Below are positions 3,632 to 28,560 of a stretch of 40,818 bases of DNA, piece by piece. The notes beneath the pieces are model-generated. The model did no database searches. It saw nothing but the letters and a program-made list of their open reading frames with translations, and had not been told where the DNA came from. The position numbers and the translations under genes were made by a program. The stretch is from Nevskiales bacterium (lineage in GTDB: Bacteria > Pseudomonadota > Gammaproteobacteria > Nevskiales > Nevskiaceae), in assembly GCA_028698335.1 (NCBI GenBank), contig JAQVDP010000025.1, positions 1 to 40,818 of the forward strand. The letters run 5' to 3'. Every line of letters begins with the position of its first letter. Positions within the stretch are counted from its first letter, which is position 1.

Positions 3632-4483
3632 ATGCAGCGCTACAGGATTCTTCACCGCACCGAATATCAGTACACGGGCGAGGTCCAGTTGGGTGCGCAC
3701 CAGTTACGGGTGCGTCCGAAGGAGGGGCATGAGCTGCGGATCGAGTCGTCCCGACTCGACATCACGCCGCCGGCACAGCTGCGCTGGCATCGCGACGTCG
3801 AGGACAATTCGGTCGCGATCGCGACATTCGACGCCGCCGCAACTGCGCTGGTGATCGAGAGCGAGGTGATTATCCAGCAATACAACGAGGAACCGCTGGA
3901 CTTCCTGGTGGCCGACTATGCGATCGACTATCCGTTCGCGTATCGGGCCGACGATCGGGCGGTGCTTTCGCCGTATCTGAACGCGACCGACCACAAGAGC
4001 AGTGAGGTGCTCGAAGCCTGGGCGGCCGAGCTCTGGCAGCCGGGCGAGGCGATCCAGACGTACGCCTTGCTGGAACGCCTGTGTCTGCACATCAAGGACA
4101 CCATGACCTATCAGGTCCGGGAGGAGCCCGGCGTGCAAAGTGCGGCCGAAACCTTGTCGTCGGCCACCGGATCGTGCCGGGACTTCGCCTATCTGTTCAT
4201 CGAGGCGGTCCGGCGTTGGGGGCTCGCGGCCCGTTTCGTCAGCGGCTATCTGCATGCGCCGCTGGTTCCGGGGGAATGCGGGGCGACGCACGCCTGGGCC
4301 GAGGTGTTCCTGCCGGGCGCGGGCTGGAAAGGCTTCGACCCGACGGTCGGGGCGATCGTCGGTTCCGATCACATCCCGGTCGCGGTTTCGCGCCTGCCGG
4401 AGTCCGTGCCCCCGGTGGCGGGTTCGTTCACCGGGCCGCCCGGCTCGACGCTGAGCGTCGGCGTCTGGGTGGAGGCGCTCTGA
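3632..4483 (+). CDS. Transglutaminase-like (cysteine protease fold) protein
   Basis: The 283-residue cytoplasmic-looking protein has no signal peptide. An N-terminal beta domain (MQRYRILHRTEYQYTGEV) is followed by the transglutaminase-like core. The catalytic triad is visible: Cys182 in ATGSCRDFAYLF, His220 in THAWAEVFLPG and Asp236 in GFDPT. The N-terminal HRTEYQY pattern and overall size fit the bacterial transglutaminase-like family with an N-terminal extension (PF08379 plus PF01841). Members are thought to be proteases or amidases rather than crosslinkers, and the substrate is unknown. The gene stands alone, 70+ bases upstream of the ceramidase gene on the same strand; co-transcription is possible but unproven. 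Confidence 0.9.
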   Translation: MQRYRILHRTEYQYTGEVQLGAHQLRVRPKEGHELRIESSRLDITPPAQLRWHRDVEDNSVAIATFDAAATALVIESEVIIQQYNEEPLDFLVADYAIDYPFAYRADDRAVLSPYLNATDHKSSEVLEAWAAELWQPGEAIQTYALLERLCLHIKDTMTYQVREEPGVQSAAETLSSATGSCRDFAYLFIEAVRRWGLAARFVSGYLHAPLVPGECGATHAWAEVFLPGAGWKGFDPTVGAIVGSDHIPVAVSRLPESVPPVAGSFTGPPGSTLSVGVWVEAL

Positions 4484-4667
4484 GTCTCCGACACCCGGCG
4501 GCGCGACAGGCCGGGCGCGAATCAACGGCACGGATGTTGTCGATATTCCCGAAATGTCGCGCATGGATGACGCGATAGGATCGATTTGCTGCTGCGGAGG
4601 CGTGTCATGGCTCCGTAATATCGGCAGTCGGATGAAAAGAGTCTTGGGGAACGACGTGACGAATGCG

Positions 4668-9745: not shown

Positions 9746-10693
9746 TCAGTGCATCCAGGTGAGGATGACTTCCATCAGATGGTGCCCGAGCCCGATGCCG
9801 ATCAGGCCGGCGGCGACGGCAAAGCCGAGCGTGGTGCCCATCAGCGGCGCCGATGCGGCGTTGTGCGCGCTGAGCAGTTCGGCGATGCGCTGTTCGAAGG
9901 CCGTGGAGTTGATCTGACTCAGAGACGGGTCGTGCGACTGCAGGCCCAGGCGCTGGACGCGCAACAGCGTGCGCGCAACGCGTTCGGGCGTGCTGTGTCG
10001 GGCGGCGGCCTGGTCGGCGACATGCTCGGCGCTGCGGAACAGGTCGCCCATCAGGTGTCGTCCCGGCAGCCGGGTCAGCGGACAGAACAGTGTCATCGCG
10101 AGCAGGTGCACGAGGTTGTCGCGGCGCCGCGCATGGCAGGACTCGTGCGCGACGATGGTTCGCAGCTCGTCGTCGCCGAGCGCGCGCAGCAAGCCCGACG
10201 ATACGAATATCCGGCTGCTCCAGAGTCCGGCGCACAGTGCCAGCGGCCGCTCGCAGTCGAGGATCCAGAAGCCGCGCGCGTCGGGCCGGATCGCCAGGCC
10301 TCTCAGCGTCGCGGCCCAGAGCCGGTGCGCCTGCAGCAGGCGCAGGACCCGGAACACGATGGTGGTGATCAGGGCGCAGATGGCAAAGGCGAAGATGCGG
10401 TCATCGGTCCCGCTGGCGAGCCATGACGGGATGTGGGCCTGACAGCCCAGTGCGTCGTGGCAGTGTTCGAATTCGGGAATGTCCAGCGGCAGGAAGATCA
10501 GTGCCGTCGTGACGCTGCTCGTGGCCAGCGGCAGTATCGCGAGCACGCTCAACAGCCGCCGTCGTGCTTGCGGTGCGGTGCGGTGCAGCCAGTCGTGCAG
10601 TCCCGCATGCAGCAGCGCGGTGGCGCCGCTCATCAGCAGCCACAGGATCAGCAGCAGGGTTGCGGCGGCCAGTGCCTCGTCGATCGCGGTCAT
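9746..10693 (-). CDS. M56-family (BlaR1-like) integral membrane metallopeptidase
   Basis: The 315-residue membrane protein has about three N-terminal transmembrane helices (roughly residues 7-29, 46-70 and 100-120). A cytoplasmic zinc-peptidase loop has HESCH (His183, Glu184, His187) and the downstream ligand region AEHVADQAAARHS (Glu223). Further hydrophobic segments are near 195-210 and 280-300. In BlaR1/MecR1 this module cleaves the partner repressor after sensing. Here no large periplasmic sensor domain follows, so the signal is unknown. Its ATG overlaps the upstream repressor gene by 4 bp, the standard pairing. No beta-lactamase is nearby; the first downstream gene is a TonB receptor, which may be the regulated target. 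Confidence 0.9.
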   Translation of the reverse strand: MTAIDEALAAATLLLILWLLMSGATALLHAGLHDWLHRTAPQARRRLLSVLAILPLATSSVTTALIFLPLDIPEFEHCHDALGCQAHIPSWLASGTDDRIFAFAICALITTIVFRVLRLLQAHRLWAATLRGLAIRPDARGFWILDCERPLALCAGLWSSRIFVSSGLLRALGDDELRTIVAHESCHARRRDNLVHLLAMTLFCPLTRLPGRHLMGDLFRSAEHVADQAAARHSTPERVARTLLRVQRLGLQSHDPSLSQINSTAFEQRIAELLSAHNAASAPLMGTTLGFAVAAGLIGIGLGHHLMEVILTWMH

Positions 10694-11103
10694 TTCCGGG
10701 ACCTTTGCGGGTTGCGTCGATCCTCGATCCAGCGTTCGAGGCGGTCGAGCGTCGCTTCGTCGATGGTGTCGCGCTGATCGAGCAGCCCGAGGATGGCCCC
10801 ATTGAGGTCGTCGGCGGACAGCGCTTCCACCAGATCGGACACCATGCGCGCGGTCAGTGCGTCGCGACTGATGGCGGTGTGGTAGCGGAAGCTGCGGCCC
10901 TGTTTGCTGCGTCTGAGCAAGCGTTTGCGCGTCAGGCGCTCGAGCGTGGTCTGGACCGTGCTGAGGGTGATGCCGCGCTGTGTCGACAGTTCGGCGTAGA
11001 TGTCGAGCGCCGACTGACCTTGACGGCGCCAGAGGCTGTCGAGAATTCCCCGCTCCAGCCGTCCGAGAGGCGGCGTGCGATCACCGTAGATACCCAGCTT
11101 CAC
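10690..11103 (-). CDS. BlaI/MecI/CopY-type winged-helix repressor
   Basis: The 137-residue protein has the N-terminal winged helix of the family: PLGRLERGILDSLW, SALDIYAELS, and TLSTVQTTLERLTRKRLLRR as recognition helix and wing. A C-terminal helical dimerisation domain follows, where family members are cleaved by their M56 partner. It is translationally coupled to the M56 peptidase (ATGA overlap at 10690-10693). A 25-bp inverted repeat sits 22 bases upstream of its start and is a strong candidate operator, implying autoregulation. The target genes beyond the pair, probably the TonB receptor, are inferred. Confidence 0.92.
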   Translation of the reverse strand: MKLGIYGDRTPPLGRLERGILDSLWRRQGQSALDIYAELSTQRGITLSTVQTTLERLTRKRLLRRSKQGRSFRYHTAISRDALTARMVSDLVEALSADDLNGAILGLLDQRDTIDEATLDRLERWIEDRRNPQRSRK

Positions 11104-11209: not shown

Positions 11210-11937
11210 CTACACCGTCAGATGGTGGCGCACCATGTCGTCGGTGAGCGCGTCGATCGCGCCTTCGGCGACCAGGCGGCCCTTGTCGAGAATGCGGAAC
11301 TCGCTGGCGACGCGACGTGCGAACGGCAGCTTCTGCTCGACCAGCAGCACGGTCAGGCCGGTGTCCTCGTTGAGCTTCAGGATCAGGTCGCCGATTTCGT
11401 GGACGATGTTCGGCTGGATGCCTTCGCAGGGCTCGTCGAGGATCAGCAGCTCCGGCTGCAGCAGCAGCGCACGGCCGATTGCGAGCTGTTGTTGCTGACC
11501 GCCGGACAGATCGCCGCCGCGGCGCTTGAGCATCTGCTTGAGCACCGGGAAGGTGGTGTAGACACGCTCCAGCGCGTCGGCCGGGCGTTCGCGCTTTGCA
11601 AACAAACCGGTGCGCAGATTCTCTTCCACGGTCAGCTGCGAGAAGATCTCGCGCCCTTGTGGCACATAGCCGATGCCCAATGATGCGCGCGCGTCGGCGC
11701 TGCGCTTGACCAGATTCTGGTCGCCGAACTGGATCTCGCCGGAAGCGGTCGGCACCAGGCCCATCACGCAGCGCAGCAGCGTGGTCTTGCCCATGCCGTT
11801 GCGGCCCATCAGGCAGGTGCGCGAGCCCTTCGGGACCGACAGGCTGATGTCCCACAGGGTGTGACTGCCGCCGTAGAACTGATTGAGCTGGCGCGTCTCC
11901 AGCAAGGCTGCGGGCGCGGTTTGGGTATCCGCCATCG

Positions 11938-11941
<4 letters not shown>
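11210..11941 (-). CDS. urtE: Urea ABC transporter ATP-binding subunit UrtE
   Basis: The 243-residue LivF-type ATPase has Walker A GRNGMGKTTLL, signature LSGGQQQQLAIGRAL, Walker B LLILDEPCEGIQP and an H-loop-like region VLLVEQKLPFA. The EPCEGIQPNIV wording is typical of UrtE rather than generic LivF. It forms the nucleotide-binding pair with UrtD to power urea import through UrtB/UrtC. ATG at 11941 overlaps the urtD stop (ATGA), so it is the last cistron of urtABCDE. ATG two codons on (MADTQ) is an alternative start. Confidence 0.95.
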
Positions 11942-12767
<826 letters not shown>

Positions 12768-12771
<4 letters not shown>

Positions 12772-13874
12772 GCGGTGGCCTCCTTGCGACGCAGCAGGCC
12801 GACGATGCCCTGCGGCAGGAACACGGTGACGACGACGAACAGCGCGCCCAGCGCGTACAGCCAGATCTCCGGCAGTGCGCCGGTCAGCACGGTCTTGGCG
12901 TAGTTGACCAGCAGCGCGCCGACGACGGCGCCGTAGAGGGTGCCGCGGCCGCCGATCGCGACCCAGACCACGACCTCGATCGAGTTGATCGGCGCGAACT
13001 CGCCGGGGTTGATGATGCCGACCTGCGGCACGTACAGCGCGCCGGCGATGCCGGCCAGCGCGGCCGAGAACGTGAACAGCCACAGCTTGTAGTTCTCGAC
13101 CTTGTAGCCGATGAAGCGGGTGCGCGCCTCGGCATCCCGCACCGCCTCGATCACGCGGCCGAAGCGCGAGCCGACGATGTAGCGGCTGGCGGCATAGCCC
13201 AGGCCCAGCGCGATCGCCGTGCACAGGAACAGCGCGACACGGGTATTGCTCGACTGCAGGTCGTAGCCGAGCAGGTCCTTGAAGTCGGTCAGGCCGTTGT
13301 TGCCGCCGAAGCCCATCTCGTTGCGGAAGAATGCCAGCAACAGCGCGTAGGTCAGTGCCTGCGTGATGATCGACAGATACACGCCGGTGACGCGCGAACG
13401 GAATGCGAACCAGCCGAACACGTACGCCAGCACGCCCGGCGCGAGGACCACCATCAGCATCGCGAACCAGAACATATCGAAGCCGTGCCAGAACCACGGC
13501 AATGCCTTCCAGTCCAGGAACACCATGAAGTCCGGCAGCACCGGGTCTCCGTAGACGCCGCGGCTGCCGATCTGGCGCATCAGGTACATGCCCATCGCGT
13601 AGCCGCCGAGCGCGAAGAATGCGGTGTGGCCGAGGCTGAGAATGCCGCAGTAGCCCCAGATCAGATCCAGCGCCACCGCCAGCAGCGCGTAGCTCAGATA
13701 CTTGCCGAGCAGGGTGACGGTGTAGGTCGACAGATGCAGCGCCGAGCCCTCCGGCACCGCGAGGTGCAGGATCGGGACCGCCACCGCGACCGCCAGCAGG
13801 ACGACGAAGAACGCGCTGCTGCCGCGATCATCGCGCATCGGCAGCAGGCGGGACAGCAATGAGGATGCGGCCAT
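12768..13874 (-). CDS. urtC: Urea ABC transporter permease UrtC
   Basis: The 368-residue LivM-type permease has about ten hydrophobic helices. Recognisable stretches are LDLIWGYCGILSLGHTAFFA, GNNGLTDFKDLLGYDL, VIEAVRDAEARTRFIGY (the ABC-coupling EAA-like loop) and PGEFAPINSIEVVVWVAIGG. It forms the inner-membrane channel with UrtB. The start at 13874 shares one base with the urtB stop (TGATG). The N-terminus reads MAASSLLSRLLPMRDDRG with a first helix beginning near residue 20. Confidence 0.95.
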
Positions 13875-15589
13875 CAGTGGCCCTCCGCGGCACGGCCTTT
13901 GTGCGGAAACAGTCCGCGCGGCCTGCGTTGTATGAACAGGATCAGGAACACCAGCACCAGAATCTTCGCCAGCACCGCGCCGGAGTACGGCTCCAGCAGC
14001 TTGTTGATCACGCCCAGCGACAGGCCGCTGATCAGGGTGCCCCAGAGATTGCCGACGCCGCCGAAGACCACGACCATGAACGAGTCGATGATGTAGGACT
14101 GGCCGAGATTGGGGCCGACATTGGTCAGCTGCGACAGCGCCACGCCGGCGACCCCGGCGATGCCGGCGCCGAGGCCGAAGGTCGCGGCGTCGACCCACTC
14201 GGAGCGGATCCCCATCGCCCGCGCCATCGCACGGTTCTGCGACACCGCGCGCACCTTCAGGCCCAATGTCGTGCGCTTCAGGATCAGCTGCAGCAGCACG
14301 AACACGATCAGCGCGAAGACGATGATGTAGAGGCGGTTGTAGGTCAGGCTCAGTGCCTCGTTGATCTGCAGCGTGCCGCTCATGAAGTCCGGCGTGGAGA
14401 CCGAGCGGTTCAGCGGCGAGAAGATCGAGCGCACCAGCTGCTGCAGGATCAGCGACAGGCCGAAGGTGGCCAGCAGCGTTTCCAGCGGGCGGCCGTAGAG
14501 GAAGCGCACGATGCCGCGCTCGATCGCGACGCCGAACGCGCCGGAGACGATGAACGCCGCCGGGATCGACAGCACCATCGACAGGCCGATGTGCTCGGGC
14601 ATCAGCAGCTGCATGCAATACGTGGTGTAGGCGCCGATCATCATCAGCTCGCCGTGCGCCATGTTGATCACGCCCATGACGCCGAAGGTGATGGCCAGGC
14701 CGATCGCCGCCAGCACCAGCACCGATCCCAGGCTCATGCCGAAGAACAGCGTCTCGATCCAGCCGTAGACCTTGCGCCAGCCGTCGATGCCGCGCACGGC
14801 GGCGGCGGCGGCCTTGCGTACCGCCGTGTCCGGATCGCCCTCGGCGATCAGGTTCAGGCGGTTGTAGACCGCGGTCTTCATCGAGCCGCGGAGGTGCTCG
14901 ATCGCGGCCATGCGGCCTTCGGCGTCGGCACTGCCGAGATCGGCGAGGGCGAGACCGGTTTCGATCTCGGCCAGCACCTCGGCGTCCTTTTCGACGGGCG
15001 CCCGCTGGCGCAGCAGCGCGACGGTGTCCTCGTCGAGATCGTCGACCAGCTCGCGCGCCGAGGCGAGCCGCACGGCGGCGTCGGGATCGGACAGCTCGAA
15101 CTGTGCGATCGCCTGGCGCAGCGCCTTGCGCAGGGCGTTGTTGGTGCGGATGCGCTTGAGGCCGCCGCTGGCGCCGCCGGCGGCCGCGCCGGTCAACGGA
15201 TCGGTCAGGCTGTAGTGGTCGTCTCCGTCCTCGACCGCGATGAAGACCTTGCCGTCCGCGGCGCGCTGGTACAGCGCGCCGTCGAGAAAGGCGCGCAGCG
15301 CGAGGCGGGTGTTCGGTGCGCCGAGCGCCACCATGCGCGCAACCAGAGCCTGCTTCTCGCGGTAGCCGGCGCCGCCCAGCTCGGCGAGCAGCGGAGCCAG
15401 CGTGGCCGATGCGTCCTGAGATGCCGTCGCCGCCTGTCCGGCGTCGGCACTGTCATCCTGCGCCATCAGCGCCGGCGCCGGTCCCAGGCCGAGCAGCAAC
15501 GCGGCGAGCCAGATACGGACGCCGCGCATGGCACCTGCGCGCCCGCGGGCAGCGGGCGGCGTCGGGACGAGAGTCGCATGGTCGGTCAC
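13874..15589 (-). CDS. urtB: Urea ABC transporter permease UrtB with N-terminal extracytoplasmic domain
   Basis: The 571-residue protein has a signal-like helix at about residues 22-44 (RIWLAALLLGLGPAPALMAQ). A region to about residue 275 carries HEAT-like helical repeats (for example LRKALRQAIAQFELSDPDAA and VRKAAAAAVRGIDGW). The LivH-type permease follows, with GLAITFGVMGVINMAHGELM, ETLLATFGLSLILQQLVRS and VRAVSQNRAMARAMGI. UrtB proteins of proteobacteria carry this extra domain, absent from LivH, presumably for interaction with UrtA. The gene is separated from urtA by 132 bp that contain a long hairpin. The start is the first ATG of the frame; an internal Met at residue 21 (MRGVRIW), just before the signal helix, is equally plausible. 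Confidence 0.94.
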   Translation of the reverse strand: MTDHATLVPTPPAARGRAGAMRGVRIWLAALLLGLGPAPALMAQDDSADAGQAATASQDASATLAPLLAELGGAGYREKQALVARMVALGAPNTRLALRAFLDGALYQRAADGKVFIAVEDGDDHYSLTDPLTGAAAGGASGGLKRIRTNNALRKALRQAIAQFELSDPDAAVRLASARELVDDLDEDTVALLRQRAPVEKDAEVLAEIETGLALADLGSADAEGRMAAIEHLRGSMKTAVYNRLNLIAEGDPDTAVRKAAAAAVRGIDGWRKVYGWIETLFFGMSLGSVLVLAAIGLAITFGVMGVINMAHGELMMIGAYTTYCMQLLMPEHIGLSMVLSIPAAFIVSGAFGVAIERGIVRFLYGRPLETLLATFGLSLILQQLVRSIFSPLNRSVSTPDFMSGTLQINEALSLTYNRLYIIVFALIVFVLLQLILKRTTLGLKVRAVSQNRAMARAMGIRSEWVDAATFGLGAGIAGVAGVALSQLTNVGPNLGQSYIIDSFMVVVFGGVGNLWGTLISGLSLGVINKLLEPYSGAVLAKILVLVFLILFIQRRPRGLFPHKGRAAEGH

Positions 15590-15634
15590 GGTGAGTCGGC
15601 TCCGGTGGTGCCAGGAACGGTGATGGCTGAAAAG

Positions 15635-15675
15635 GGGTGCCCGGACGCCGAGTCATCGGCGGCGCCCGGGCACCC
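15635..15675 (-). terminator. Compound hairpin between urtA and urtB
   Basis: Outer arms gggtgcccgg (15635-15644) and ccgggcaccc (15666-15675) are perfectly complementary. They enclose a second perfect stem cgccga-gtca-tcggcg (15646-15661), with a 4-base bulge (gcgc) between the stems. No clean U run follows in the direction of transcription, so it may act as a partial terminator or as a 3' stabiliser of urtA mRNA. Either would give more of the binding protein than of the membrane subunits. Confidence 0.6.
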
Positions 15676-15721
15676 AGCCCCTCCGGGAGGGAGTAAGGGA
15701 TCGCCCGTCGTGTCAGAACCC

Positions 15722-16993
15722 TCAGTAGTTCTGACCCGAGCACTCCTTGGTCTTGGTGTTGTAGTTGCCGCACTTCAGCTTGACCCAGTCGGCCTCGATG
15801 TCCTTCGAGCCTTCGAGGAAGTCGCTCCACGCATCGCCCGGAACTTCCTTCTCGGTCTCCCAGACCACGTCGAACTGGCCGTCGTCGCGGACCTCACCGA
15901 TGAACACGGGCTTGGTCAGGTGATGGTTCGGCAGGAACTTGGCGGTACCGCCGGTGAGGTTCGGCGTCTCGATGCCGATGATCGCGCTGCTGACGGTGTC
16001 GACGTCGGTGGTCTTGGCTTTCTCGACCGCCTTGGCCCACAGGTTGAAGCCGATCACCGTGGCCTCCATCGGATCGTTGAACGTGCGCTTGTCGTTCTTG
16101 ATGTACTGGTGCCAGGTGTCGATCAGCTTCTCGTTCTCCGGCGTGTCGATCGACATGAAGTAGTTCCATGCGGCGAGGTGGCCCACCAGCGGCTTGGTGT
16201 CCAGGCCGGCCAGCTCTTCCTCGCCGACCGAGAACGCGACCACCGGAATGTCCTCGGCCGAGATCTTCTGGTTGCCCAGCTCCTTGTAGAACGGCACGTT
16301 GGCGTCGCCGTTGATCGTCGAGACCACCGCGGTCTTCTTGCCGGCGCTGCCGAACTTCTTGATGTCCGACACGATCGACTGCCAGTCGGAATGACCGAAC
16401 GGCGTGTAATTGATCATGATGTCTTCCTGCTTCACGCCCTTGGCCTTCAGATAGGCCTCGAGGATCTTGTTGGTCGTGCGCGGATAGACGTAGTCGGTCC
16501 CGGCCAGCACCCAGCGCTTCACGCCGACGTCGTTCATCAGATAGTCGACGGCCGGGATCGCCTGCTGGTTGGGCGCCGCGCCGGTGTAGAAGACGTTCTT
16601 CGACGACTCCTCACCCTCGTACTGCACCGGATAGAACAGCAGGCCGTTGAGTTCCTCGAACACCGGCAGCACCGACTTGCGCGAGACCGAGGTCCAGCAG
16701 CCGAAGACGACGTCGACCTTGTCCTTGGCCAGCAGCTCGCGCGCCTTTTCGGCGAACAGCGGCCAGTTCGACGCCGGATCGACCACCACCGGCTCCAGCT
16801 TCTTGCCGAGCAGGCCGCCCTTCTTGTTCTGCTCGTCGATCATCATCAGGACGGTGTCCTTCAGCGTGGTCTCCGAGATGGCCATCGTGCCGGACAGAGA
16901 GTGCAGCACCCCGACCTTGATGGTGTCGGCGGCCTGTGCCGCGAAGCTGGCGGCGCCGAGCGCGGCGGCCGTCAGAATGGTTTTGAGTTTCAT
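15722..16993 (-). CDS. urtA: Urea ABC transporter substrate-binding protein UrtA
   Basis: The 423-residue periplasmic protein has a cleavable signal (MKLKTILTAAALGAASFAAQ, cut after AQA). The mature start DTIKVGVLHSLSGTMAISET is diagnostic of UrtA, as are VVFGCWTSVSRKSVLPVFEE, LLFYPVQYEGEESSKNVFY and GTDYVYPRTTNKI. It captures urea (sometimes short amides) and delivers it to UrtBC. The upstream gap to the porin gene is short and filled with hairpins, so the two may share a promoter with attenuation between them. A weak aaggga lies about ten bases before ATG 16993. Two cysteines close the protein (KCGNYNTKTKECSGQNY). Confidence 0.97.
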   Translation of the reverse strand: MKLKTILTAAALGAASFAAQAADTIKVGVLHSLSGTMAISETTLKDTVLMMIDEQNKKGGLLGKKLEPVVVDPASNWPLFAEKARELLAKDKVDVVFGCWTSVSRKSVLPVFEELNGLLFYPVQYEGEESSKNVFYTGAAPNQQAIPAVDYLMNDVGVKRWVLAGTDYVYPRTTNKILEAYLKAKGVKQEDIMINYTPFGHSDWQSIVSDIKKFGSAGKKTAVVSTINGDANVPFYKELGNQKISAEDIPVVAFSVGEEELAGLDTKPLVGHLAAWNYFMSIDTPENEKLIDTWHQYIKNDKRTFNDPMEATVIGFNLWAKAVEKAKTTDVDTVSSAIIGIETPNLTGGTAKFLPNHHLTKPVFIGEVRDDGQFDVVWETEKEVPGDAWSDFLEGSKDIEADWVKLKCGNYNTKTKECSGQNY

Positions 16994-17089: not shown

Positions 17090-18076
17090 TCAGAACGTGA
17101 ACAGGGCTTCGAGCGCGTACGAGTCCGAGTCGCCGTTGGTATCGGACGTATCCGAGCGGTATTCGCCCACGATCAGCCAGTTGTCGCCGACCTTGTAGCT
17201 GGGCGACAGCGTGATCGCGCTGCCGTCGTCGACGGTGACGCCGGCGTCGTCCTGGATCTCGAAGTCGTGATAGCGCAGCGTGATGCCGAAGGGGCCGGTG
17301 GCGTAGTTGGCCATCAGCAGGAAGCCGTCGCCGTCGCCGGCAGGGCCGTAGTCGGCCGTGTTGTACTCGCCCGCGAAGGTGAATCCCGCGACCGCGTAGG
17401 AAATCCAGGCGTTGACGATGTCGGTGTCGGTGTCCTCGTCCGAGATGTAGAACGCCTTCGCGGTCAGCCCCTCGACGGGCATCAGGGCCACGCCGGCTTC
17501 GTAGCCCATCTTGTCGTCGACACCCTCGACGCTGTTGCGGTCGTTCGGGTTGAAGGCGCTGGTGACGACCGAACCCATGACGGCGACCTTGCTGCCGCCG
17601 TAGTAGGCGGAAATGCCGTTCTGGTAGTAACCATAGAAATACTTGGCGTAGCCGGTGCCGCTGTACTGGAACAGGCCGGTGGGTTCTTCGGCTTCCCAGC
17701 CGCTGTAGCTCAGGAAGCGGCCGACCTTCACGCTGAACTGCTCGGTGAAGGCCTTGGTGACGAAGGCCTGCTCGACGAAGGTGGTGTCGCCGGTGCCTTC
17801 GAAGCCCTCGCCGTATTCGATGTCGACTTCGGCGGAAACGCCGCCCGAGCCGGCATACAGGAAGTCGGTCTCGACCTGATCGATGCCGATGCTTTCCGTG
17901 GTCGAGCCGCCGTCGGGCGAGAACGACGAGTACGACATGTCGACAAAGCCCATGACACTGAGGCCGGTCCCCAACTCGATCTCGGCATGTGCGACCGGAA
18001 CGGCGCTCACGGCACCGGCGGCCATCAGCGCCGATGCCCAGCGCGTGACCGCGTTGATCTTGTGCATCCGCTGCAT
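17090..18076 (-). CDS. Outer-membrane porin-like beta-barrel, probably for urea uptake
   Basis: The 328-residue exported protein has a signal peptide that begins MQRMHKINAVTRWASALMAA and ends at AHA, followed by EIELGTGLSVMGFVDMSY. Beta strands alternate with acidic Asp/Gly/Ser-rich loops, and the final residue is Phe (ALEALFTF), as in outer-membrane barrels. ATG 18076 is preferred because aagga lies 7 bases upstream; a TTG at 18103 and an ATG at 18082 are alternatives. It immediately precedes urtA on the same strand, so a role in letting urea or amides cross the outer membrane is inferred from context. I do not recognise the exact family. Its codon use matches its neighbours. Confidence 0.82.
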   Translation of the reverse strand: MQRMHKINAVTRWASALMAAGAVSAVPVAHAEIELGTGLSVMGFVDMSYSSFSPDGGSTTESIGIDQVETDFLYAGSGGVSAEVDIEYGEGFEGTGDTTFVEQAFVTKAFTEQFSVKVGRFLSYSGWEAEEPTGLFQYSGTGYAKYFYGYYQNGISAYYGGSKVAVMGSVVTSAFNPNDRNSVEGVDDKMGYEAGVALMPVEGLTAKAFYISDEDTDTDIVNAWISYAVAGFTFAGEYNTADYGPAGDGDGFLLMANYATGPFGITLRYHDFEIQDDAGVTVDDGSAITLSPSYKVGDNWLIVGEYRSDTSDTNGDSDSYALEALFTF

Positions 18077-18302
18077 CCCCATTTCCTTCCTGCTCACGTT
18101 CAAAACTCCCTGTGTGTAAAGCCTTCAATGGGCTCGGGCCCGAGAAAATCCGATCGGTGGGCAGGCATTGACCGGCGTAGCGGCATCCTTCTTGCGTCGA
18201 CGACCCCGTGTTCCCCGTTTGGCGCGACTGCCCCCAGCTGCCAGAACAGGCTAGGCGGCGGATCTGGACACCGGTATGGGGCGATTGGCGTAGGGGGATG
18301 GG
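18077..18302. promoter_or_regulatory. Divergent regulatory gap between the porin-urt and sensor-ure arms
   Basis: All promoters for the leftward porin/urtABCDE arm and the rightward sensor/urease arm should be in this region. A perfect 12-bp palindrome ctcgggcccgag lies at 18133-18144, and a ttgcgtcgacg stretch near 18192. No convincing sigma54 (-24/-12) or sigma70 element pair was found by eye. The partner response regulator encoded at 21757 carries a LuxR-type DNA-binding domain and is the natural candidate to bind here. Confidence 0.4.
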
Positions 18303-21300
18303 GTGAATGACGTAGATGCAAAGCGCCGCAACACGGTCATCATCCGCAGCGTGCAAGACATTCAGGGCCAGGCGGCGGCGCTCGGCCCGCAGCCGCGCCA
18401 GCGGATCGTGCGCGAGCGCCGCCAGTACAACAAATGGGCCGCCAGCCAGACGCTGGAGGACTACGCGCTGCGCTTTACCGCCGAGAAGGCGCGCAAGTAT
18501 TCGTCGTTCCGTGTCGCCAACACCGCGTTCGGGGCGATCTCGTTTCTGGCCTGCGAGGCCATCGGCGGTACGCTGACCCTGGCCTACGGGTTCGCCAACG
18601 CGGTCACCGCGATCCTGCTGGTGTGCGCGCTGATGTTCCTGATCGGCCTGCCGATCGCGCGCTACGCGGCCCGCTACGGGCTGGACATCGATCTGCTCAC
18701 CCGCGGCGCCGGCTTCGGCTACATGGGCTCGACGATCACCTCGCTGATCTATGCCTCGTTCACCTTCCTGCTGCTGGCGATCGAGGCCAGCATCATGTCC
18801 GGCGCGCTGGAGATGCTGTTCGGCATTCCGCTGGCGGTGGGCCATGTCATCAGCTCGCTGCTGGTGATTCCGATCGCGATCTACGGCATCCGCATGATCA
18901 GCCGGGTGCAGATGGCGACGCAGCCGGTCTGGCTGCTGCTGCAGTTCGCGCCGCTGCTGTTCCTGCTGGTCTCCGGCAGCGACGCGCTGAAGTCATGGGC
19001 CGGATTCGCGGGCCGCCACGGCGATCCGGAGGGGGCACTGGACCCGACGCTGTTCGCCATCTGCGCGTCGACCCTGCTGTCGTTGCTGCCGCAGATCGGG
19101 GAGCAGGCCGACTACCTGCGCTTTCTGCCCAGCCACCAGCGCATCGGCAGATGGCGCTGGTGGACGGCGCTGCTGAGCACCGGGCCGGGCTGGGTGCTGA
19201 TGGGCGGACTGAAGCTGCTCGCCGGCTCGTTCCTGGCCTACTTCGCCCTGAACCACGGCATCGACGAGGCGCGTGCCGCCGAGCCGGCCGAGATGTTCTT
19301 CGTCGCGTTTCGCGAGATGCTGGGATCCCCCGCGGTGGCGCTGGTGCTGACCGGCATCTTCGTCATCACCTGCCAGCTCAAGATCAATGTGACCAATGCC
19401 TATGCCGGCTCGATCGCGTGGTCGAATTTCTTCTCGCGGCTGACCCACGCGCATCCGGGCCGCGTCGTCTGGCTGGTGTTCAACGTGCTGCTGGCCTTGC
19501 TGCTGATGGAGATCGGCATCCTGCGCGTGATCGAAGGTGTGCTGATGCTGTACGCGAATTTCGCGGTGGCGTGGATTGGCGCGCTGACCGCGGATCTGGT
19601 CGTCAACAAGCCGCTGGGCCTGTCGCCGAAGCACATCGAGTTCAAGCGCGCGCACCTGTACGACATCAATCCCGTCGGCGTCGGCGCGATGCTGTGCTCG
19701 GTGCTGGCGTCGACCGCGGCGTTCATGGGCGTCCTTGGCCCGATGGCGCAGGCGCTGTCGCCGTTCGTTGGTTTCGCCGTCGCCTTCGTCGCGGCGCCGC
19801 TGATCGCCTGGGCCACTCAGGGCCGCTACTACCTTGCGCGCGAGGCCGGCGGGCTGGCGGACGCCCCGGAGATCCGCTGCGTGATGTGCGAGAACGTGTT
19901 CGAGCGCAGCGACATGGCGATGTGTCCGGCCTACAACGGACCGATCTGCTCGCTGTGCTGCACCCTGGAGACGCGCTGCCATGACCTGTGCAAGGACGAC
20001 AGCCGTTTCAGCCAGCAGATCACCGGATTCCTGATGCGCTTCATGCCGGCGCGTATGGCCGCCGTGGCGCATACCAGCACCGGCCATTTCATCGGTACCT
20101 TTGGCATGATCACCCTGGTGGTCGGCCTGCTGCTCGGCTTCATCTATCTGCAGTACGTCGCGGTCGCGCCGCAGCACGCCGACGTCGTCCGCCACACGCT
20201 GACGATCGTGTTCTTCGCGCTGTTGATCGTCTCCGGCATCTCGGCGTGGCTGCTGGTGCTGGCCCAGCACAGCCGCCAGTCGGCGGAGCAGGACTCGCAG
20301 CGGCAGACCGTGATGCTGATGGAGGAGATCGAGGCGCACGAGCGCACCGACGCCGCGCTGCAGAAGGCCAAGGAGCTGGCCGAGAGCGCCAACGAGGCCA
20401 AGAGCCGTTACATCGTCGGCATGAGTCACGAGATCCGCTCGCCGCTCAACGCCATCCTTGGCTATGCGCAGCTGCTGGAGCGCGGCACCGCGCGGCCGGA
20501 CAACGCGATCCAGGTGATCCGCCGCAGCGCCGGGCATCTGTCGAATCTGGTCGACGGCCTGCTCGACATCTCCAAGATCGAGAGCGGACTGCTGCGCCTG
20601 TCGCGCGACAAGGTGCCGCTGGCCGAGTTCCTCGACCAGATCGCCGACATGTTCCGCGTGCAGGCCGAGGCCAAGGCGATCGATTTCCGCTACCAGCGGC
20701 CGGAGACGCTGCCGGCCTACGTGCACGCCGACCAGAAGCGTCTGCGCCAGATCCTGATCAACCTGCTGTCGAACGCGATCAAGTACACGCGCGAAGGCCA
20801 CGTCGGCCTGACCGTGCGCTACCCGTCGAGCCAGGTCGCCGAGTTCGAGATCGTCGATTCCGGCATCGGCATCCGCGGGACCGACCTCGACAACATCTTC
20901 AAGCCGTTCGAGCGCGGCGGCATGCCCGGCGTCAGCGCCGTGCCCGGGGTCGGTCTGGGACTGACGATCACCAAGGTCCTGGTGCAGATCATGGGCGGCG
21001 AGATCGCAGTGCGCAGCGCGCCGGGTGAGGGCAGCAGCTTCACCGTGCGCCTGTACCTGTCCGAGGCCAGCGGCGCGCCCGAGGCCGACGCGCATCGGCG
21101 CATCGTCGGCTATCTCGGCCCGCGCGCGACGGTGCTGCTGGCCGACGACGATCCGGCGCATCGCGGCCTGATCGAAGGGCTGCTCCGCCCGCTCGGCTTC
21201 AACCTGTTCATGGCCGCCGACGGGCTTGGCTGCCTGGAGCTGGCCAGCGAGTGCAGGCCCCATCTGGTGATGCTCGACATCGCGATGCCCGGCATGAGCG

Positions 21301-21767
21301 GCTGGGAGGTCGCCGCCGCATTGCGCGCGCTGGAGCCGCCGCAGCCGAAGATCATGATGGTCTCGGCCAACGCCCACGACTACGGCCGCGGCGGTGATCG
21401 CAATTCGCCGCACGACGCCTTCCTGGTCAAGCCGATCGAGATCGACAGCATGCTCGAGCGCATCGGCGCGCTGCTGGGACTGCGCTGGGTCTACGAGGGC
21501 GACGCGCCCGTCCCGGAGGAGACGCCGGTGGAGCAGACCACGCCGCGGCCGCCGGCGCGCGCGCGCCGCTATGTCGACGAGCTTGCGCAGCTCGGCCGCA
21601 TCGGTCACGTCCGCGGCATCGAGGCCAAGCTGCGCGAACTCGAAGCCGCCGAACCGGAGAGTCGTGCGTTCGTCGCGCGGCTGCAGCAGCTGGTCGCGAA
21701 CTTCGACATGAAGGGCTACGTCAGCCTGCTCGACAGCGTGCGGGAGGAGGTGCGGGATGATGGCTGA
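18303..21767 (+). CDS. NCS1-type permease fused to a hybrid sensor histidine kinase/response regulator
   Basis: This is a 1154-residue polytopic sensor. Residues about 70-515 resemble purine/cytosine (NCS1) permeases, with many hydrophobic helices and motifs such as LLTRGAGFGYMGSTITSLIY. A linker with eight cysteines follows (526, 529, 541, 549, 552, 553, 559, 563; patterns CVMC, ICSLCC, RCHDLC). Two transmembrane helices (about 595-620 and 634-655) and a coiled coil lead into HisKA with phospho-acceptor His709 (MSHEIRSPLNAIL). The ATPase domain (NLLSNAIKY at 820, DSGIGI, GVGLGLTI) precedes a receiver with Asp992 (LVMLDIAMPGMSG) and a C-terminal helical tail. GTG 18303 follows aggggg. Transporter-kinase fusions are known for SLC5 (CbrA); here the permease is NCS1-like. 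Urea or a related nitrogen compound as ligand is inferred from context. Confidence 0.88.
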   Translation: MNDVDAKRRNTVIIRSVQDIQGQAAALGPQPRQRIVRERRQYNKWAASQTLEDYALRFTAEKARKYSSFRVANTAFGAISFLACEAIGGTLTLAYGFANAVTAILLVCALMFLIGLPIARYAARYGLDIDLLTRGAGFGYMGSTITSLIYASFTFLLLAIEASIMSGALEMLFGIPLAVGHVISSLLVIPIAIYGIRMISRVQMATQPVWLLLQFAPLLFLLVSGSDALKSWAGFAGRHGDPEGALDPTLFAICASTLLSLLPQIGEQADYLRFLPSHQRIGRWRWWTALLSTGPGWVLMGGLKLLAGSFLAYFALNHGIDEARAAEPAEMFFVAFREMLGSPAVALVLTGIFVITCQLKINVTNAYAGSIAWSNFFSRLTHAHPGRVVWLVFNVLLALLLMEIGILRVIEGVLMLYANFAVAWIGALTADLVVNKPLGLSPKHIEFKRAHLYDINPVGVGAMLCSVLASTAAFMGVLGPMAQALSPFVGFAVAFVAAPLIAWATQGRYYLAREAGGLADAPEIRCVMCENVFERSDMAMCPAYNGPICSLCCTLETRCHDLCKDDSRFSQQITGFLMRFMPARMAAVAHTSTGHFIGTFGMITLVVGLLLGFIYLQYVAVAPQHADVVRHTLTIVFFALLIVSGISAWLLVLAQHSRQSAEQDSQRQTVMLMEEIEAHERTDAALQKAKELAESANEAKSRYIVGMSHEIRSPLNAILGYAQLLERGTARPDNAIQVIRRSAGHLSNLVDGLLDISKIESGLLRLSRDKVPLAEFLDQIADMFRVQAEAKAIDFRYQRPETLPAYVHADQKRLRQILINLLSNAIKYTREGHVGLTVRYPSSQVAEFEIVDSGIGIRGTDLDNIFKPFERGGMPGVSAVPGVGLGLTITKVLVQIMGGEIAVRSAPGEGSSFTVRLYLSEASGAPEADAHRRIVGYLGPRATVLLADDDPAHRGLIEGLLRPLGFNLFMAADGLGCLELASECRPHLVMLDIAMPGMSGWEVAAALRALEPPQPKIMMVSANAHDYGRGGDRNSPHDAFLVKPIEIDSMLERIGALLGLRWVYEGDAPVPEETPVEQTTPRPPARARRYVDELAQLGRIGHVRGIEAKLRELEAAEPESRAFVARLQQLVANFDMKGYVSLLDSVREEVRDDG

Positions 21768-22705: not shown

Positions 22706-23287
22706 ATGAAGCTCACCCCTCGCATTCTGACGCTGTCGACCCTGCTGGTGCTGAGCGGCGTCGCCGACGCCCATCCGCTGCATGCCGGCGCGGCGATGGC
22801 GGACGGATTCCTGCATCCGTGGCTCGGCTGGGATCACCTGCTGGCGATGGTCGCCGTCGGTCTGTGGGCGCGGCAGCGCCAGTCGGACATGGCGGTGGCG
22901 TGGCTGCCGGCGAGCTTCGTCGCGGCCGTCGCGGTCGGGGCCTGGGCGGGCCACTGGCGCGGTGACGCCGCGATGGTCGAGTCATGGATCGCGCTGAGCC
23001 TCGTCGGGCTCGGCGCACTGCTGGCGCTGCGGGTGCGGCTGAGCATGCCGTTGGCGCTGCTGCTGGTGCCGGCGATGGGACTCGCGCACGGATGGGCACA
23101 CGGCGTGGAGCTGCCGGCGTCGGCGCCGGGCCTGCCGTTCGCCGCCGGCTTTGTGGGCGCGACCGCGGTGCTGCACGGCATCGGCGTCGCGATCGCCGCG
23201 GGCGTGCTGTCGCGTGGCGCCGCGCCGCTGCTGCGCATCGGCGGCATCGGGATCCTGGCCAGCGGCTGCGGCCTGCTGCTGGGCTGA
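22706..23287 (+). CDS. ureJ: HupE/UreJ-family nickel permease
   Basis: The 193-residue membrane protein has a signal-like N-terminus (MKLTPRILTLSTLLVLSG, ADA) followed by HPLHAGAAMADGFLHPWLGW and DHLLAMVAVGLWA, the family metal-site signature (HP...GxDHxxxM). About six hydrophobic segments follow, with a second His motif GLAHGWAHGVELP. HupE/UreJ proteins move nickel (or cobalt) across the inner membrane. Placement directly ahead of ureD supports nickel supply to urease. ATG 22706 has gggagg 5-6 bases upstream. Its stop shares one base with the ureD start. I use ureJ because of context; hupE is the other common name. Confidence 0.92.
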   Translation: MKLTPRILTLSTLLVLSGVADAHPLHAGAAMADGFLHPWLGWDHLLAMVAVGLWARQRQSDMAVAWLPASFVAAVAVGAWAGHWRGDAAMVESWIALSLVGLGALLALRVRLSMPLALLLVPAMGLAHGWAHGVELPASAPGLPFAAGFVGATAVLHGIGVAIAAGVLSRGAAPLLRIGGIGILASGCGLLLG

Positions 23288-24159
23288 TGCAGGCACCGCC
23301 GCCGCTTCCGGAACGCATGCGCACGGCGCTGTCGCAGCGGCCGGCCTGGCACGCACGCCTGCAGCTCGGCGTCGCGCTGAGGGACGGACGCAGCGTGCTC
23401 GGACGCTGTGAGCACCACGGGCCGTTACGGATCCAGAAGGTGCTGTACCCGGAAGGGCCGGGGCTGGCGCAGTTGCTGATGCTGCATCCGCCCTCGGGTA
23501 TCGCCGGGGGCGACGCGCTGGAGATCGGGGTGCATGCCGAATCCGGCGCCTGCGCGCTGCTGACCACACCCGGCGCGGGCAAGTGGTACAAGTCCGCCGG
23601 CCGTGTCGCGCGCCAGAGCGTGCGCCTGCGTGTCGACGCCGGCGCCGCGCTCGAATGGCTGCCGCAGGAAGCGATCGTGTTCGACCGCGCCGAAGCCGAG
23701 CAGGTCCTGCACGTCGACTGTCACGGCTCGGCACGCTGCATCGGCTGGGATATCGCGGTCCTCGGTCGCCTCGGCAGCGACGAACGTTTCGAGCACGGGC
23801 GCTGGCAGCAGCGCATCGATCTGTGCCGCGACGGCGAGCGTTTGTGGGCCGAGCGTGGCCGCGTCGACGGCGGCGACCCGCTGCTGCGCTCCGTCGTCGG
23901 CTGGAACGGCCTGCATGTCTGCGGCCTGATGTGGGTGATCGGCATGCCCGACGACGAGGCACTGCTCGACGCCTGCCGCGCGGTGCCGGCCGACGGCGTG
24001 CGGGTGGGCGTGACCGCGCCCCGCGACGCCCTGCTGCTGGTACGGGTGCTCGGCGACTCGGCCGAACGCGTGCGCGGCTGTCTCGGCGCGATCTGGGCCC
24101 TGTTGCGACCTGCCGTCCTCGGCCGCCCGGCGGTGCCGCCGCGCATCTGGTCCACCTGA
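23287..24159 (+). CDS. ureD: Urease accessory protein UreD
   Basis: The 290-residue protein has the UreD hallmarks: [67 protein letters not shown] and [16 protein letters not shown]. UreD (UreH) binds apo-urease and UreF-UreG and provides the nickel-delivery tunnel. The start at 23287 follows the family start and overlaps the nickel permease stop by one base (TGATG). It lies first in ureDABCEFG, as in many proteobacteria. Confidence 0.95.
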
Positions 24160-24197
24160 TGCGCTTTTCATCCGAATTCTGACTGGGAGTACCGTCG

Positions 24198-24500
24198 ATG
24201 GAGCTGACGCCCCGCGAGAAGGACAAGCTGCTGATCTTCACCGCTGCGCTGCTGGCCGAACGGCGCAAGGCGCGCGGCGTGAAGCTGAACTATCCGGAGG
24301 CGGTCGCGCTGATCACCGCCGAGATCATGGAGGGCGCGCGCGACGGCCGCAGCGTGGCCGAGCTGATGAGTCACGGCCGCACGATTCTGTGCCGCGACGA
24401 TGTGATGGACGGGGTCGCCGGGATGATTCCGGACATCCAGGTCGAGGCGACCTTTCCGGACGGCACCAAGCTGGTGACCGTGCACGATCCGATCGTCTGA
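24198..24500 (+). CDS. ureA: Urease gamma subunit
   Basis: The 100-residue protein starts [20 protein letters not shown] and contains [34 protein letters not shown] and the end VTVHDPIV, all standard for UreA. It is a structural subunit of the (UreABC)3 enzyme. The gap from ureD is 38 bases, with ggga before the ATG. Length is typical. Confidence 0.97.
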
Positions 24501-24511
24501 GGGCGCGCGCG

Positions 24512-24823
24512 ATGATTCCTGGGGAACTGCTGCCGGAGCCCGGCGAGATCGAACTCAACGCCGGGCGCGACACGATCACCTTGAGCGTGACCAATACCGG
24601 CGACCGCCCGGTCCAGGTCGGCTCGCATTACCACTTCTACGAGACCAATGCGGCGCTGGACTTCGATCGCGAGTCGGCGCGCGGCTTCCGGCTCAACATC
24701 GCGGCGGGCACCGCGGTGCGCTTCGAGCCGGGGCAGTCGCGTACGGTCGAGCTGGTCGCGCTCGCCGGCGACCGCATCGTCCACGGATTCAACGCCAAGG
24801 TCTGCGGGCCGCTGGGGAACTGA
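24512..24823 (+). CDS. ureB: Urease beta subunit
   Basis: The 103-residue protein starts [19 protein letters not shown] and includes [37 protein letters not shown] and [11 protein letters not shown], the conserved UreB core. It lies 11 bases after ureA and ends one base before the ureC ATG. As a separate gene (not fused to ureA) it gives the common three-subunit bacterial urease. Confidence 0.97.
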
Positions 24824-24824
24824 C

Positions 24825-26531
<1,707 letters not shown>

Positions 26532-26565
26532 TCGGGCTGTGGTCGTGGATCTGCGAACGAAAACA

Positions 26566-26586
26566 GGGCGGCGGTCCGACCCGCCC
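26566..26586 (+). other. Small stem-loop between ureC and ureE
   Basis: The arms gggcgg / ccgccc are separated by 9 bases, in the 66-base gap after ureC. No U run follows, so it is unlikely to stop transcription. It could tune the structural versus accessory gene dose by RNA processing or partial attenuation. Confidence 0.35.
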
Positions 26587-26597
26587 CACGCTGCGCC

Positions 26598-27170
26598 ATG
26601 AGCGAGTTGCTGAAAATCACCGAGCGTGTCGAAGGCGCGGCCGCGCCGACGGCCGCGCGCATGCTGGTGCTGAGCTTCGCCGAGCGTTCGCGCAGCCGCC
26701 TGCGCACCGTGCTCGACGACGGCACCGAAGTCGGCCTGCTGCTGCCGCGCGGCACCGTGCTGCGCGGTGGCGACGTGCTGTGCGCGACGACCGGGGAGCC
26801 GGTGGTGGTGCGTGCCGCGATCGAGGCCCTGTACCGGGTCACGGCGCCCCGCGACGATGCCGATCCGGGGTTCACGTTGCTGCGCGCGGCCTATCACCTG
26901 GGCAACCGTCACGTGCCGGTGGCGTTGGCACCGAATGTGCTTTATCTCGAACAGGACCCGGTGTTGTGCGAGATGCTGCGGCGACTCGGCCTGCAGGTCG
27001 AGGCGTGCATGGCGGCGTTCGAACCGGAGGCCGGTGCGTACGGTGGCGGTCATCGCCACGACCACGAACCGCCTCCGCCCGGAGAGGGCGGCTCACTCGG
27101 AGAGCAGCTGTCGCGCGAGGCACATGCGCGTGGCGGTGGTGATTTTGCGCAGATGCAGTTCTACAGATGA
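26598..27170 (+). CDS. ureE: Urease accessory metallochaperone UreE
   Basis: The 190-residue protein has an N-terminal beta domain ([37 protein letters not shown]). The C-terminal domain carries [14 protein letters not shown] (His100/His105 region, the conserved dimer-interface nickel site). The tail contains GGGHRHDHE (His152, 154, 156), a modest His cluster compared with the long His tails of some UreE. It brings nickel to UreG/UreDF. The gap from ureC is 66 bases with a small GC-rich stem-loop. Confidence 0.95.
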
Positions 27171-27220
27171 GCGGTGAGATCAGCCGCCGGCGGACTGGGC
27201 ACTTTTTGGAAGGGAGGACG

Positions 27221-27910
27221 ATGGGTATCAAGTCTTACGGAGCGGTCGAATCCGACGCGCTCGGGGCGTTGTTGCAGTTGTCGAGTCCGGCGCTGCCGGT
27301 CGGCGCCTACAGTTATTCGCAGGGCCTGGAGCGGGCGATCGAGGACGGCCTGATCCACGACGCGGCCAGCGCCCAGGAATGGATCGCCGATTCTCTGAAA
27401 CTGGTTCTGGGGCGCTTCGAGGCGCCGGTCTGGCTGCGCCTGCGCGCCGCCTGGGATGCCGCGGATCGCACCGTTTTCGCCGCATGGAACGAGCTGTTCA
27501 TCGCCACGCGGGAGACCCGCGAGCTGCGCGCCGAGACCCTGCAGATGGGGTATTCGCTGCGCAAGCTGCTGGGCGATCTCGGCTACGGCAGCCCGGTCGA
27601 GGCCGATGCCGAACTCAGCTTCCCGGCGGCGCATGCCTACGCGTCGGCCTGCTGGAAGATCTCGCCCAGCGTCGGCCTGCACGGTTACCTGTACGGCTGG
27701 CTCGAGAATCAGGTCACGGCGGCGCTCAAGACCGTGCCGCTGGGGCAGGTGGCGGGGCAGCGCATGCTGCTGGCACTGCGCCCCGAAGTGTCCGGAGTCG
27801 TCGACGCGGCGCTGCGCATGGACGACGACGCCCTGTCGACCCAGGCGCCGATGCTCGGCATCGTCAGCAGCCGGCACGAAATCCAGTATTCGCGACTGTT
27901 CCGCAGCTAA
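27221..27910 (+). CDS. ureF: Urease accessory protein UreF
   Basis: The 229-residue helical protein is the UreG GTPase-regulating partner in the UreDFG maturation complex. It shows [20 protein letters not shown], then [37 protein letters not shown] and [16 protein letters not shown] 27221 is chosen because gggagg lies about 6 bases upstream and the family start is close. An in-frame ATG at 27167, overlapping the ureE stop, would add 18 residues and is possible. The final helices end at [11 protein letters not shown]. Confidence 0.94.
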
Positions 27911-27927
27911 AAAGAGACGACGAGACG

Positions 27928-28560
27928 ATGAGTGACGGCAACGCCATGCAGCGCGGTCCGCTCCGGGTCGGGATCGGGGGGCCGGTCGGTTCCGGCAAGA
28001 CCACGCTGGTCGAGGTGCTGTGCAAGCGCATGCGCGAGCGTTACCGCCTCGCGGTCGTGACCAACGACATCTACACCCGTGAGGACGAACGCCTGCTGGT
28101 CGCTGCCGGCGCACTGGAGCCCGAGCGCATCATGGGCGTCGAGACCGGCGGCTGTCCGCACACGGCGATCCGCGAGGACGCGTCGATCAATCTCGAGGCG
28201 GTGGACCGGATGAGCCGGCGCTTTCCGGACCTGCAGCTGATCTTCATCGAGTCCGGCGGCGACAACCTCGCGGCGACGTTCAGCCCCGAGCTGTCGGATC
28301 TGACCGTCTACGTGATCGACGTCTCCGGTGGCGAGAAGATCCCGCGCAAGGGCGGCCCCGGCATCACCAAGGCTGACCTGCTGGTGATCAACAAGACCGA
28401 TCTGGCGCCCTATGTCGGCGCATCGCTGGACGTCATGGCGCACGACGCCGAGCGCATGCGCGGTCACCTGCCGTTCGTGATGACCAATCTCAAGGACGGC
28501 GGCGGCGTCGATGCGGTGATCGACTTCATCGTGCGTCAGGGCCTGCTCGACGCCGCCTGA
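27928..28560 (+). CDS. ureG: Urease accessory GTPase UreG
   Basis: The 210-residue SIMIBI GTPase has P-loop GPVGSGKTT (residues 18-26), [14 protein letters not shown], the metal-binding CPH motif in [15 protein letters not shown] (Cys76, His78), [15 protein letters not shown] and the base-specificity motif NKTDLAP. It hydrolyses GTP to load nickel into UreC. It is the last gene of the rightward urea arm, 17 bases after ureF. It converges on the acyl-CoA synthetase gene with only 8 bases between stops and no visible terminator. Confidence 0.97.

Follow-up and report, generated by a model that had tools for sequence, protein, structure and literature searches.

Few fusions between a transporter domain and a sensor kinase are understood, among them CbrA, CrbS and Ks-Amt5. 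CbrA of Pseudomonas is described, in the part of its structure paper that was available, as an SLC5-STAC-PAS histidine kinase, in which a membrane domain of LeuT-type transporter fold is joined to a kinase that controls nutrient genes (PMC13022988). CrbS and RpuS are grouped with CbrA as transporter-kinases in the excerpts available, and the term NCS1 does not occur in the main text of the CbrA structure paper (PMC13022988). According to an excerpt of a paper that mentions it, Ks-Amt5 of Kuenenia likewise has a nitrogen-compound transporter domain fused to a histidine kinase, although there the fold is Amt and the compound is ammonium (PMC12918730). Amide-responsive control of amidase genes is also described for AmiC/AmiR (excerpt of PMC13209695), which employs a periplasmic-type binding protein and an antiterminator rather than a membrane two-component system. 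The ammonia sensor GrtK was set aside as a relative because its membrane domain is different. The subject here is a further combination, encoded at 18303-21767 (plus strand) of a stretch of 40,818 nucleotides (the window), which is a whole contig (JAQVDP010000025.1) of the 4.3-Mb draft genome of a Nevskiales bacterium.

The uninterrupted open reading frame begins with GTG and encodes 1154 residues, in the order NCS1-fold permease, eight-cysteine block, two long helices, HisKA, HATPase and receiver. Where CbrA has SLC5, a STAC four-helix bundle and PAS, this protein has NCS1, the cysteine block and two extra helices; and in its family, unlike CbrA, a LuxR-type partner is adjacent in every hybrid with room for one. 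The kinase and its regulator lie between the divergent operons urtABCDE (11210-16993, minus strand) and ureDABCEFG (22984-28560, plus strand). We propose that the protein is a transporter-derived sensor kinase ("transceptor") for the compound handled by the neighboring genes, switching on the urt and hydrolysis genes, and we assign this reading a probability of about 60%. In the open-licence literature, no NCS1-kinase was found in titles and the beginnings of abstracts, nor was a two-component sensor with a transporter domain for urea or small amides. An earlier paper draws attention to the urt+fmdAB cluster and suggests a role in taking up formamide; the words "histidine kinase" are absent from the portion of its text available (PMC13209695). 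A genome paper draws a kinase beside urt and, in the part available, names it only a hybrid kinase (PMC13296017); presumably it belongs to this family.

Pfam matches HisKA at residues 700-762, HATPase at 810-919 and Response_reg at 944-1054, and a string search located the H-, N- and G-boxes and the receiver aspartate, so that the domains and catalytic residues of a hybrid histidine kinase are present. The Pfam scan gave no match in the first ~690 residues. The first-pass annotation, which was made from the letters of the window, had claimed a transporter-like domain, eight cysteines, a kinase and a receiver in one protein between urea uptake and urease genes. Pfam, string search and fold comparison confirm this composition, and the positions of the two operons confirm the placement.

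The nature of the N-terminal half was addressed through two structural models. For the first (residues 48-567; predicted local distance difference test score, pLDDT, 77), the best PDB folds were Mhp1 and CodB. For the second (residues 48-707, from 61 sequences, pLDDT 85.7), CodB and Mhp1 occupy ranks 1-5 of 619 PDB matches, with template-modeling scores by target of 0.63-0.80, and the SLC5-like folds (NIS, sialic acid symporter) and Nramp folds rank below the NCS1 folds. Mhp1 and CodB, whose substrates are hydantoins and cytosine, respectively, share the fold of the permease domain and are its best structural matches, but they have no kinase and no cysteine block, and identity is 16-17%. A stand-alone relative that is 43-45% identical in the permease part (L034) passes the NCS1 profile PF02133 (1.5e-7, 31 bits versus a cut-off of 23.5), as does a remote stand-alone permease (L225, 28% identical; 35.9 bits versus 23.5). 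The other four proteins of the L034 scan, namely two urease-linked and one amide-linked stand-alone permeases and one fused member, gave no PF02133 match.

The motif DYLRF in transmembrane helix 6 (TM6) of the window protein aligns with DFVRF of CodB, and Glu161 is invariant. By hand reading only, Glu161 lies opposite CodB Gln112, which we take to be the counterpart of Mhp1 Gln121; hhalign puts a gap at that place. Mhp1 Gln121 is a ligand-binding residue according to the excerpt available of PMC4195764. On balance we conclude that the N-terminal half is probably a divergent NCS1 branch. Membership of the SLC5/STAC group (CbrA type) was rejected, since the fold rank and the domain order differ. 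No SLC5 family appears in the Pfam list or among the 25 of 141 NCBIfam matches shown for the window protein, and a STAC four-helix bundle was not found after the transporter; instead, the model shows there a cysteine/beta block with a pair each of short and long helices. The earlier description of the permease as NCS1-like rather than SLC5-like is thus borne out by the structural matches and the Pfam match of the relative. At the level of profiles the picture is mixed: PF02133 misses the window protein and matches the stand-alone relatives L034 and L225. The family is common and, maybe because PF02133 misses its fused members, is mostly named kinase or "ATP-binding protein" in the annotated plasmid records listed.

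Homologs occur in 42 of 100 near relatives (a count that includes the own genome, genomes with a stand-alone permease only, and one weak match), in 52 of 398 genomes of an even phylum draw (the window's own included), in at least 583 stretches of GTDB genomes, and in 527 of 72,556 plasmid records, 342 of them Klebsiella. The phylum draw yielded 57 places besides the window (54 hybrids, two orthodox kinases and one stand-alone permease). The GTDB set consists of the best-scoring 80 of the at least 583 loci and is not random; the locus sets overlap in some genomes. Contexts were counted after removal of all matches to UrtB-E, AmiE and the regulator with less than 35% identity. By context, the 54 phylum-draw hybrids divide into urt+amide (35), urt+urease (11), urt only (3), urease only (4) and none (1), and the 77 GTDB-set hybrids into 52, 6, 11, 4 and 4, respectively. 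The lone miss of the former stands on a 4.8-kb contig; of the four in the latter, L052 has 10-kb flanks, L092 has 4-5 kb, and L079 and L098 are on short contigs. Association of the homologs with nitrogen genes had been set beforehand as one of two tests that could refute the first-pass idea, the other being the best match of the membrane domain, and both came out in its favor. The association is seen in 53 of 54 and 73 of 77 hybrids, where urt, urease or formamidase/amidase genes adjoin; among the near relatives, 16 of 16 hybrids lie in such loci. The LuxR-type regulator is directly downstream of the kinase in all hybrids with room (54/54, 73/73 with four cut by contig ends, and 17/17). The family looks like one of urea and short-chain-amide sensors, most relatives having formamidase or amidase genes and not urease. 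The original view of a urea or nitrogen transceptor is supported by this gene context and refined toward short-chain amides for most relatives. A copy of the sensor also lies next to urt on pSymB of Sinorhizobium meliloti 1021.

The permease is also found without a kinase. In three loci (L031-L033; G076, G077, G081), a stand-alone permease with all eight cysteines is transcribed divergently from the kinase and stands first in a run with fmdA-fmdB-nitrilase; the operator described below lies between this twin and the kinase, and no urt gene is listed within 20 kb. In L034-L037, a four-cysteine stand-alone permease follows ureG, and in Acinetobacter ursingii one precedes ureEFG. In most cases found, the stand-alone permease is either first in a formamidase operon or next to urease genes; that of Arthrobacter has no urease or amide neighbor in the stretch shown. 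Conversely, the permease-cysteine-hairpin module occurs on orthodox kinases at L206:8501-11182 (-), L215:8165-10861 (-) and L121:9905-12889 (+), two of these loci being beside fmdA-fmdB and one, in the cyanobacterium Phormidium, having no reference genes near. A quick tree, whose rooting rests on a very long outgroup branch, places the kinase-fused permeases on one side (98 in the Shimodaira-Hasegawa-like approximate likelihood ratio test, SH-aLRT), the stand-alone permeases outside, and the hybrids together (87). These twins and kinase swaps, with the predicted operator, make transporter-fold signaling testable by comparing twin with sensor.

The cysteines of the window protein are at 526, 529, 541, 549, 552, 553, 559 and 563. 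Their spacing, C-x2-C-x11-C-x7-C-x2-CC-x5-C-x3-C, is identical in 150 of 150 full-length non-identical hybrids (six partial rows, L225 among them, were left out), and the pattern is therefore not due to chance. Three stand-alone permeases of amide loci have all eight cysteines, and five urease-adjacent ones have only the first, second, fourth and fifth; the Arthrobacter permease lacks the block cysteines, as does L225 by eye. Because the other four are missing together in five permeases, we suggest that the block holds two sites of four cysteines each, 526/529/549/552 and 541/553/559/563. Its pair of CxxC knuckles and its short beta strands fit zinc, and a zinc-ribbon-like structural site would be a simpler reading of the block than nickel or redox coupling. 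Along the chain, the block separates the permease from two further long helices, and in the model the second of these (model 576-659) continues unbroken into HisKA; we read these helices as a putative membrane hairpin that runs on as one signaling helix to HisKA. The first-pass annotation had called this segment an eight-cysteine linker; it is not a special link to the kinase, as stand-alone permeases carry the block too, whole or half.

In relatives, a palindrome, TACGTCA-NN-TGACGTA, occurs at sensor, urt and hydrolase promoters. Dyads were enumerated for 81 kinase genes preceded by a urtA on the opposite strand, in ~460 bp at and upstream of each gene; TACGT-N6-ACGTA appeared in 24 of the 81 regions and in none of 10 shuffles; 42 operator sites were located in 36 upstream regions. 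Across 112 loci (2.26 Mb), 98 sites score at least 15 bits; 72 of them fall within -500 to +60 of a permease or permease-kinase gene, a count that is partly circular because the weight matrix was trained on upstream regions. The remaining 26 sites were not used for the matrix, except any also in a trained region. Of these, 24 precede the estimated start of fmdA (12), urtA (9), ureD, urtC or a nitrilase gene (one each) by 21-167 bp, and the two without such a gene are the two weakest. Among the urtA sites, those of two Sphingomonas are shared with ureD, and one in L127 is shared with the other sensor copy of that locus, whose region served for training. Six random hold-out splits, with kin on both sides, gave 1.1-1.5 sites/kb upstream versus 0.007-0.019 elsewhere (~60-170 times). 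Fairer tests are the shuffled dyad enumeration, the gene placement of the 26 other sites, and a genome-wide count. In this count, TACGTCANNTGACGTA with at most one mismatch has 24 sites in 19 of 22 genomes, which were hand-picked among those with a homolog, several because a site had already been seen; 23 sites are within ~10 kb of a kinase gene, and the reversed control occurs 6 times in the same genomes. By genome, 18 carry a site at the locus, a single one carries its site elsewhere only, and three lack it.

Among hybrid loci, the site is found in 49 of 58 with urt+amide, 3 of 3 amide-only, 7 of 10 urt-only and 0 of 2 with none of these genes, and also in one truncated hybrid locus. It is absent from the three orthodox-kinase loci and the five loci with a stand-alone permease only; hence the operator goes with the hybrid kinase and its regulator. 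We read the tandem half-sites at the window promoter as a likely degenerate form of the family's predicted operator. Their 22-bp spacing is that of the tandem operators in L087, L103, L105 and L125; they align in L038-L040 and are found once per genome at the kinase promoter in six genomes, the window's included. The number of matches is uninformative (10 in 24 genomes versus 32 for the reversed control, both strands) and only their placement is informative, 6 of the 10 being at the kinase promoter. GTG 18303 is doubtful as the start codon because the tandem half-sites overlap it. The 22-bp tandem repeat that it overlaps is kept in five relatives, and two aligned relatives (L038 and L040) have GTA in its place; a downstream start such as GTG 18351 is possible.

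In the mechanism that we envisage, the NCS1 domain would bind the compound of the neighboring genes, urea in the window and formamide- or acetamide-like amides in most relatives. When the permease is occupied or cycles, the cysteine block, as a putative metal ribbon, would shift together with the two-helix hairpin. The hairpin, continuing as one long helix into HisKA, would set the kinase activity, and phosphate might pass from His709, via Asp992 or directly, to the adjacent LuxR-type regulator. This regulator would bind the local operators and turn on the uptake (urt) and hydrolysis (ure, or fmdA/amidase) genes. A wider claim, that NCS1 transceptors form a large and unnamed class of bacterial membrane sensors for urea and short-chain amides, derived from a permease still standing alone in like operons, with a two-metal cysteine module, hybrid and orthodox kinases and a one-locus regulon under its own palindromic operator, the window member being tuned to urea, seems to us evenly balanced.

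Several results weigh against a transceptor. PF02133 matches none of 57 fused members, nor the window protein; a PDB sequence search with the permease profile gave no match, and single-protein PDB searches gave weak matches to other proteins only. The profile comparison with E. coli CodB/AllW is collinear over 394 columns but weak (E 0.012, probability 3.5%). The Pfam scan did not find an Hpt domain for a full phosphorelay. In Azospirillum lipoferum, the kinase and regulator occur in a stretch whose annotation, over the 31.6 kb shown, lists none of the urt, ure or amide genes, and L052 is also without such genes by reference-gene matches. The formamidase family PF03069 has matches elsewhere in the genomes of some urease-linked kin (G003, G011, G041) and in those of G006 and G010. 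Among hybrid loci with urt+urease only 12 of 23 have an operator site, and among those with urease alone 1 of 6; the full operator was not found in the window contig, where the best match has 6.1 bits and lies away from the promoter, the promoter repeats scoring 3.4 and 2.3.

A different account, which we consider unlikely, is that the NCS1 domain is an ordinary carrier joined to a kinase that senses another cue (nitrogen status, pH, or metal or thiol state via the cysteines), the gene linkage reflecting a shared nitrogen regulon. The cysteines conserved in 150 of 150 hybrids could then be the sensing site, and general nitrogen control would come in through a sigma-54-like promoter ahead of the window gene. 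Among 5 loci examined, this promoter match is perfect in 3, all of them close kin, and it is identical in L038 and L040; as a lead only, it would add NtrC control. The urease/amide label also needs at least seven changes among the hybrids on the tree, as a non-specific cue would allow. However, stand-alone permeases without a kinase carry the same cysteines, whole or half, which suggests that these serve the permease, and the NCS1 domain is retained whether the kinase is hybrid or orthodox, and also in loci where urt already supplies uptake.

Still more doubtful is a short-chain amide (formamide, acetamide) as the ligand of all members, the window's included, with the urease context secondary. 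The predominance of urt+amide loci (35 of the 54 phylum-draw hybrids) favors it, as does a UrtBC-like cluster beside Bradyrhizobium amidase genes that was earlier suspected of amide transport (excerpt of PMC3098086). Several urease-linked sensors, including that of the window, nevertheless form their own branches on the tree. Moreover, PF03069 is not matched in the window's genome, despite the urease in the operon, nor in G005, G017, G028, G036 and G040; five other genomes of its family have a match. Since that genome has no PF03069 match and its single UreD is in the window, urea is the natural guess for this sensor. PF02133 has no match in the genome either, a profile that misses the window protein itself. 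Very improbable, finally, is that the cysteines hold nickel or an iron-sulfur cluster and couple urease maturation or redox state to signaling, which was part of the first-pass idea. Eight fixed-spacing cysteines beside nickel-enzyme genes speak for this reading. Nothing found supports a coupling of nickel or redox to signaling, however: members from amide loci that lack urease genes carry the full eight, stand-alone permeases linked to urease retain just four, and the knuckles fit zinc.

Table. Features of the sensor kinase locus (window coordinates)
Feature	Position	Strand	Remark
Hybrid sensor kinase, N-terminal NCS1-like permease domain	18303..21767	+	1154 aa; true start perhaps downstream, e.g. 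18351
NCS1-like permease domain	18444..19862	+	residues 48-520; fold match CodB/Mhp1; PF02133 in stand-alone relatives
Eight-cysteine block	19878..19991	+	residues 526-563; short beta strands in model; two metal sites proposed
Two added long helices	20076..20420	+	residues 592-706; model helices 545-574 and 576-659 (model numbering)
Kinase core, HisKA + HATPase_c	20400..21059	+	His709
Receiver domain	21132..21464	+	Asp992
Response regulator, receiver + LuxR-type helix-turn-helix	21757..22680	+	overlaps kinase stop
Tandem half-sites TGGCGTA / TGACGTA	18276..18315	+	22 bp apart
Sigma-54-like -24/-12 match CGGCATCCTTCTTGC	18181..18195	+	lead only
Outer-membrane porin gene	17090..18103	-	between urtA and kinase
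urtA	15722..16993	-	substrate-binding protein
urtB	13874..14749	-	approximate boundaries
urtC	12768..13742	-	approximate boundaries
urtD	11938..12675	-	approximate boundaries
urtE	11210..11941	-	
ureD	22984..24159	+	
ureA	24198..24500	+	gamma
ureB	24512..24823	+	beta; approximate start
ureC	24648..26531	+	alpha; homology from 24831
ureE	26598..27170	+	
ureF	27167..27910	+	
ureG	27955..28560	+	approximate start

Two permease positions were considered as specificity sites and not used as evidence, with 5 independent pairs and no significance on the tree. Residue 263 of the window protein (read as TM6) ranks third of 411 positions for the difference between urease- and amide-linked sensors, and residue 157 (read as TM3; by hand near Mhp1 Trp117) is Leu in 16 of 29 urease-linked versus 0 of 60 amide-linked sensors. 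Positions without a known pocket role outscore both in this comparison.

Some further observations were made in relatives. A Hylemonella metagenome-assembled genome has two sensor copies in one locus (L127:9764 and L127:16663), one grouping with amide-linked and the other with mostly urease-linked sensors. The remote stand-alone permease at L225:9283-10938 (+) has nitrilase-like and UrtA-like matches nearby. A Klebsiella plasmid stretch (L135) carries a urtABCDE-formamidase locus with this sensor kinase, and the kinase gene of one relative (L047:8716-12261 (+), G048) has an in-frame TAG in its permease part. In the window itself, genes for a BlaR1-type peptidase (M56/M48) and a penicillinase-repressor-type regulator lie just past urtE (9746-11103, minus strand), and a transglutaminase-like gene is followed by a neutral/alkaline ceramidase gene at 3632-7274 (plus strand).

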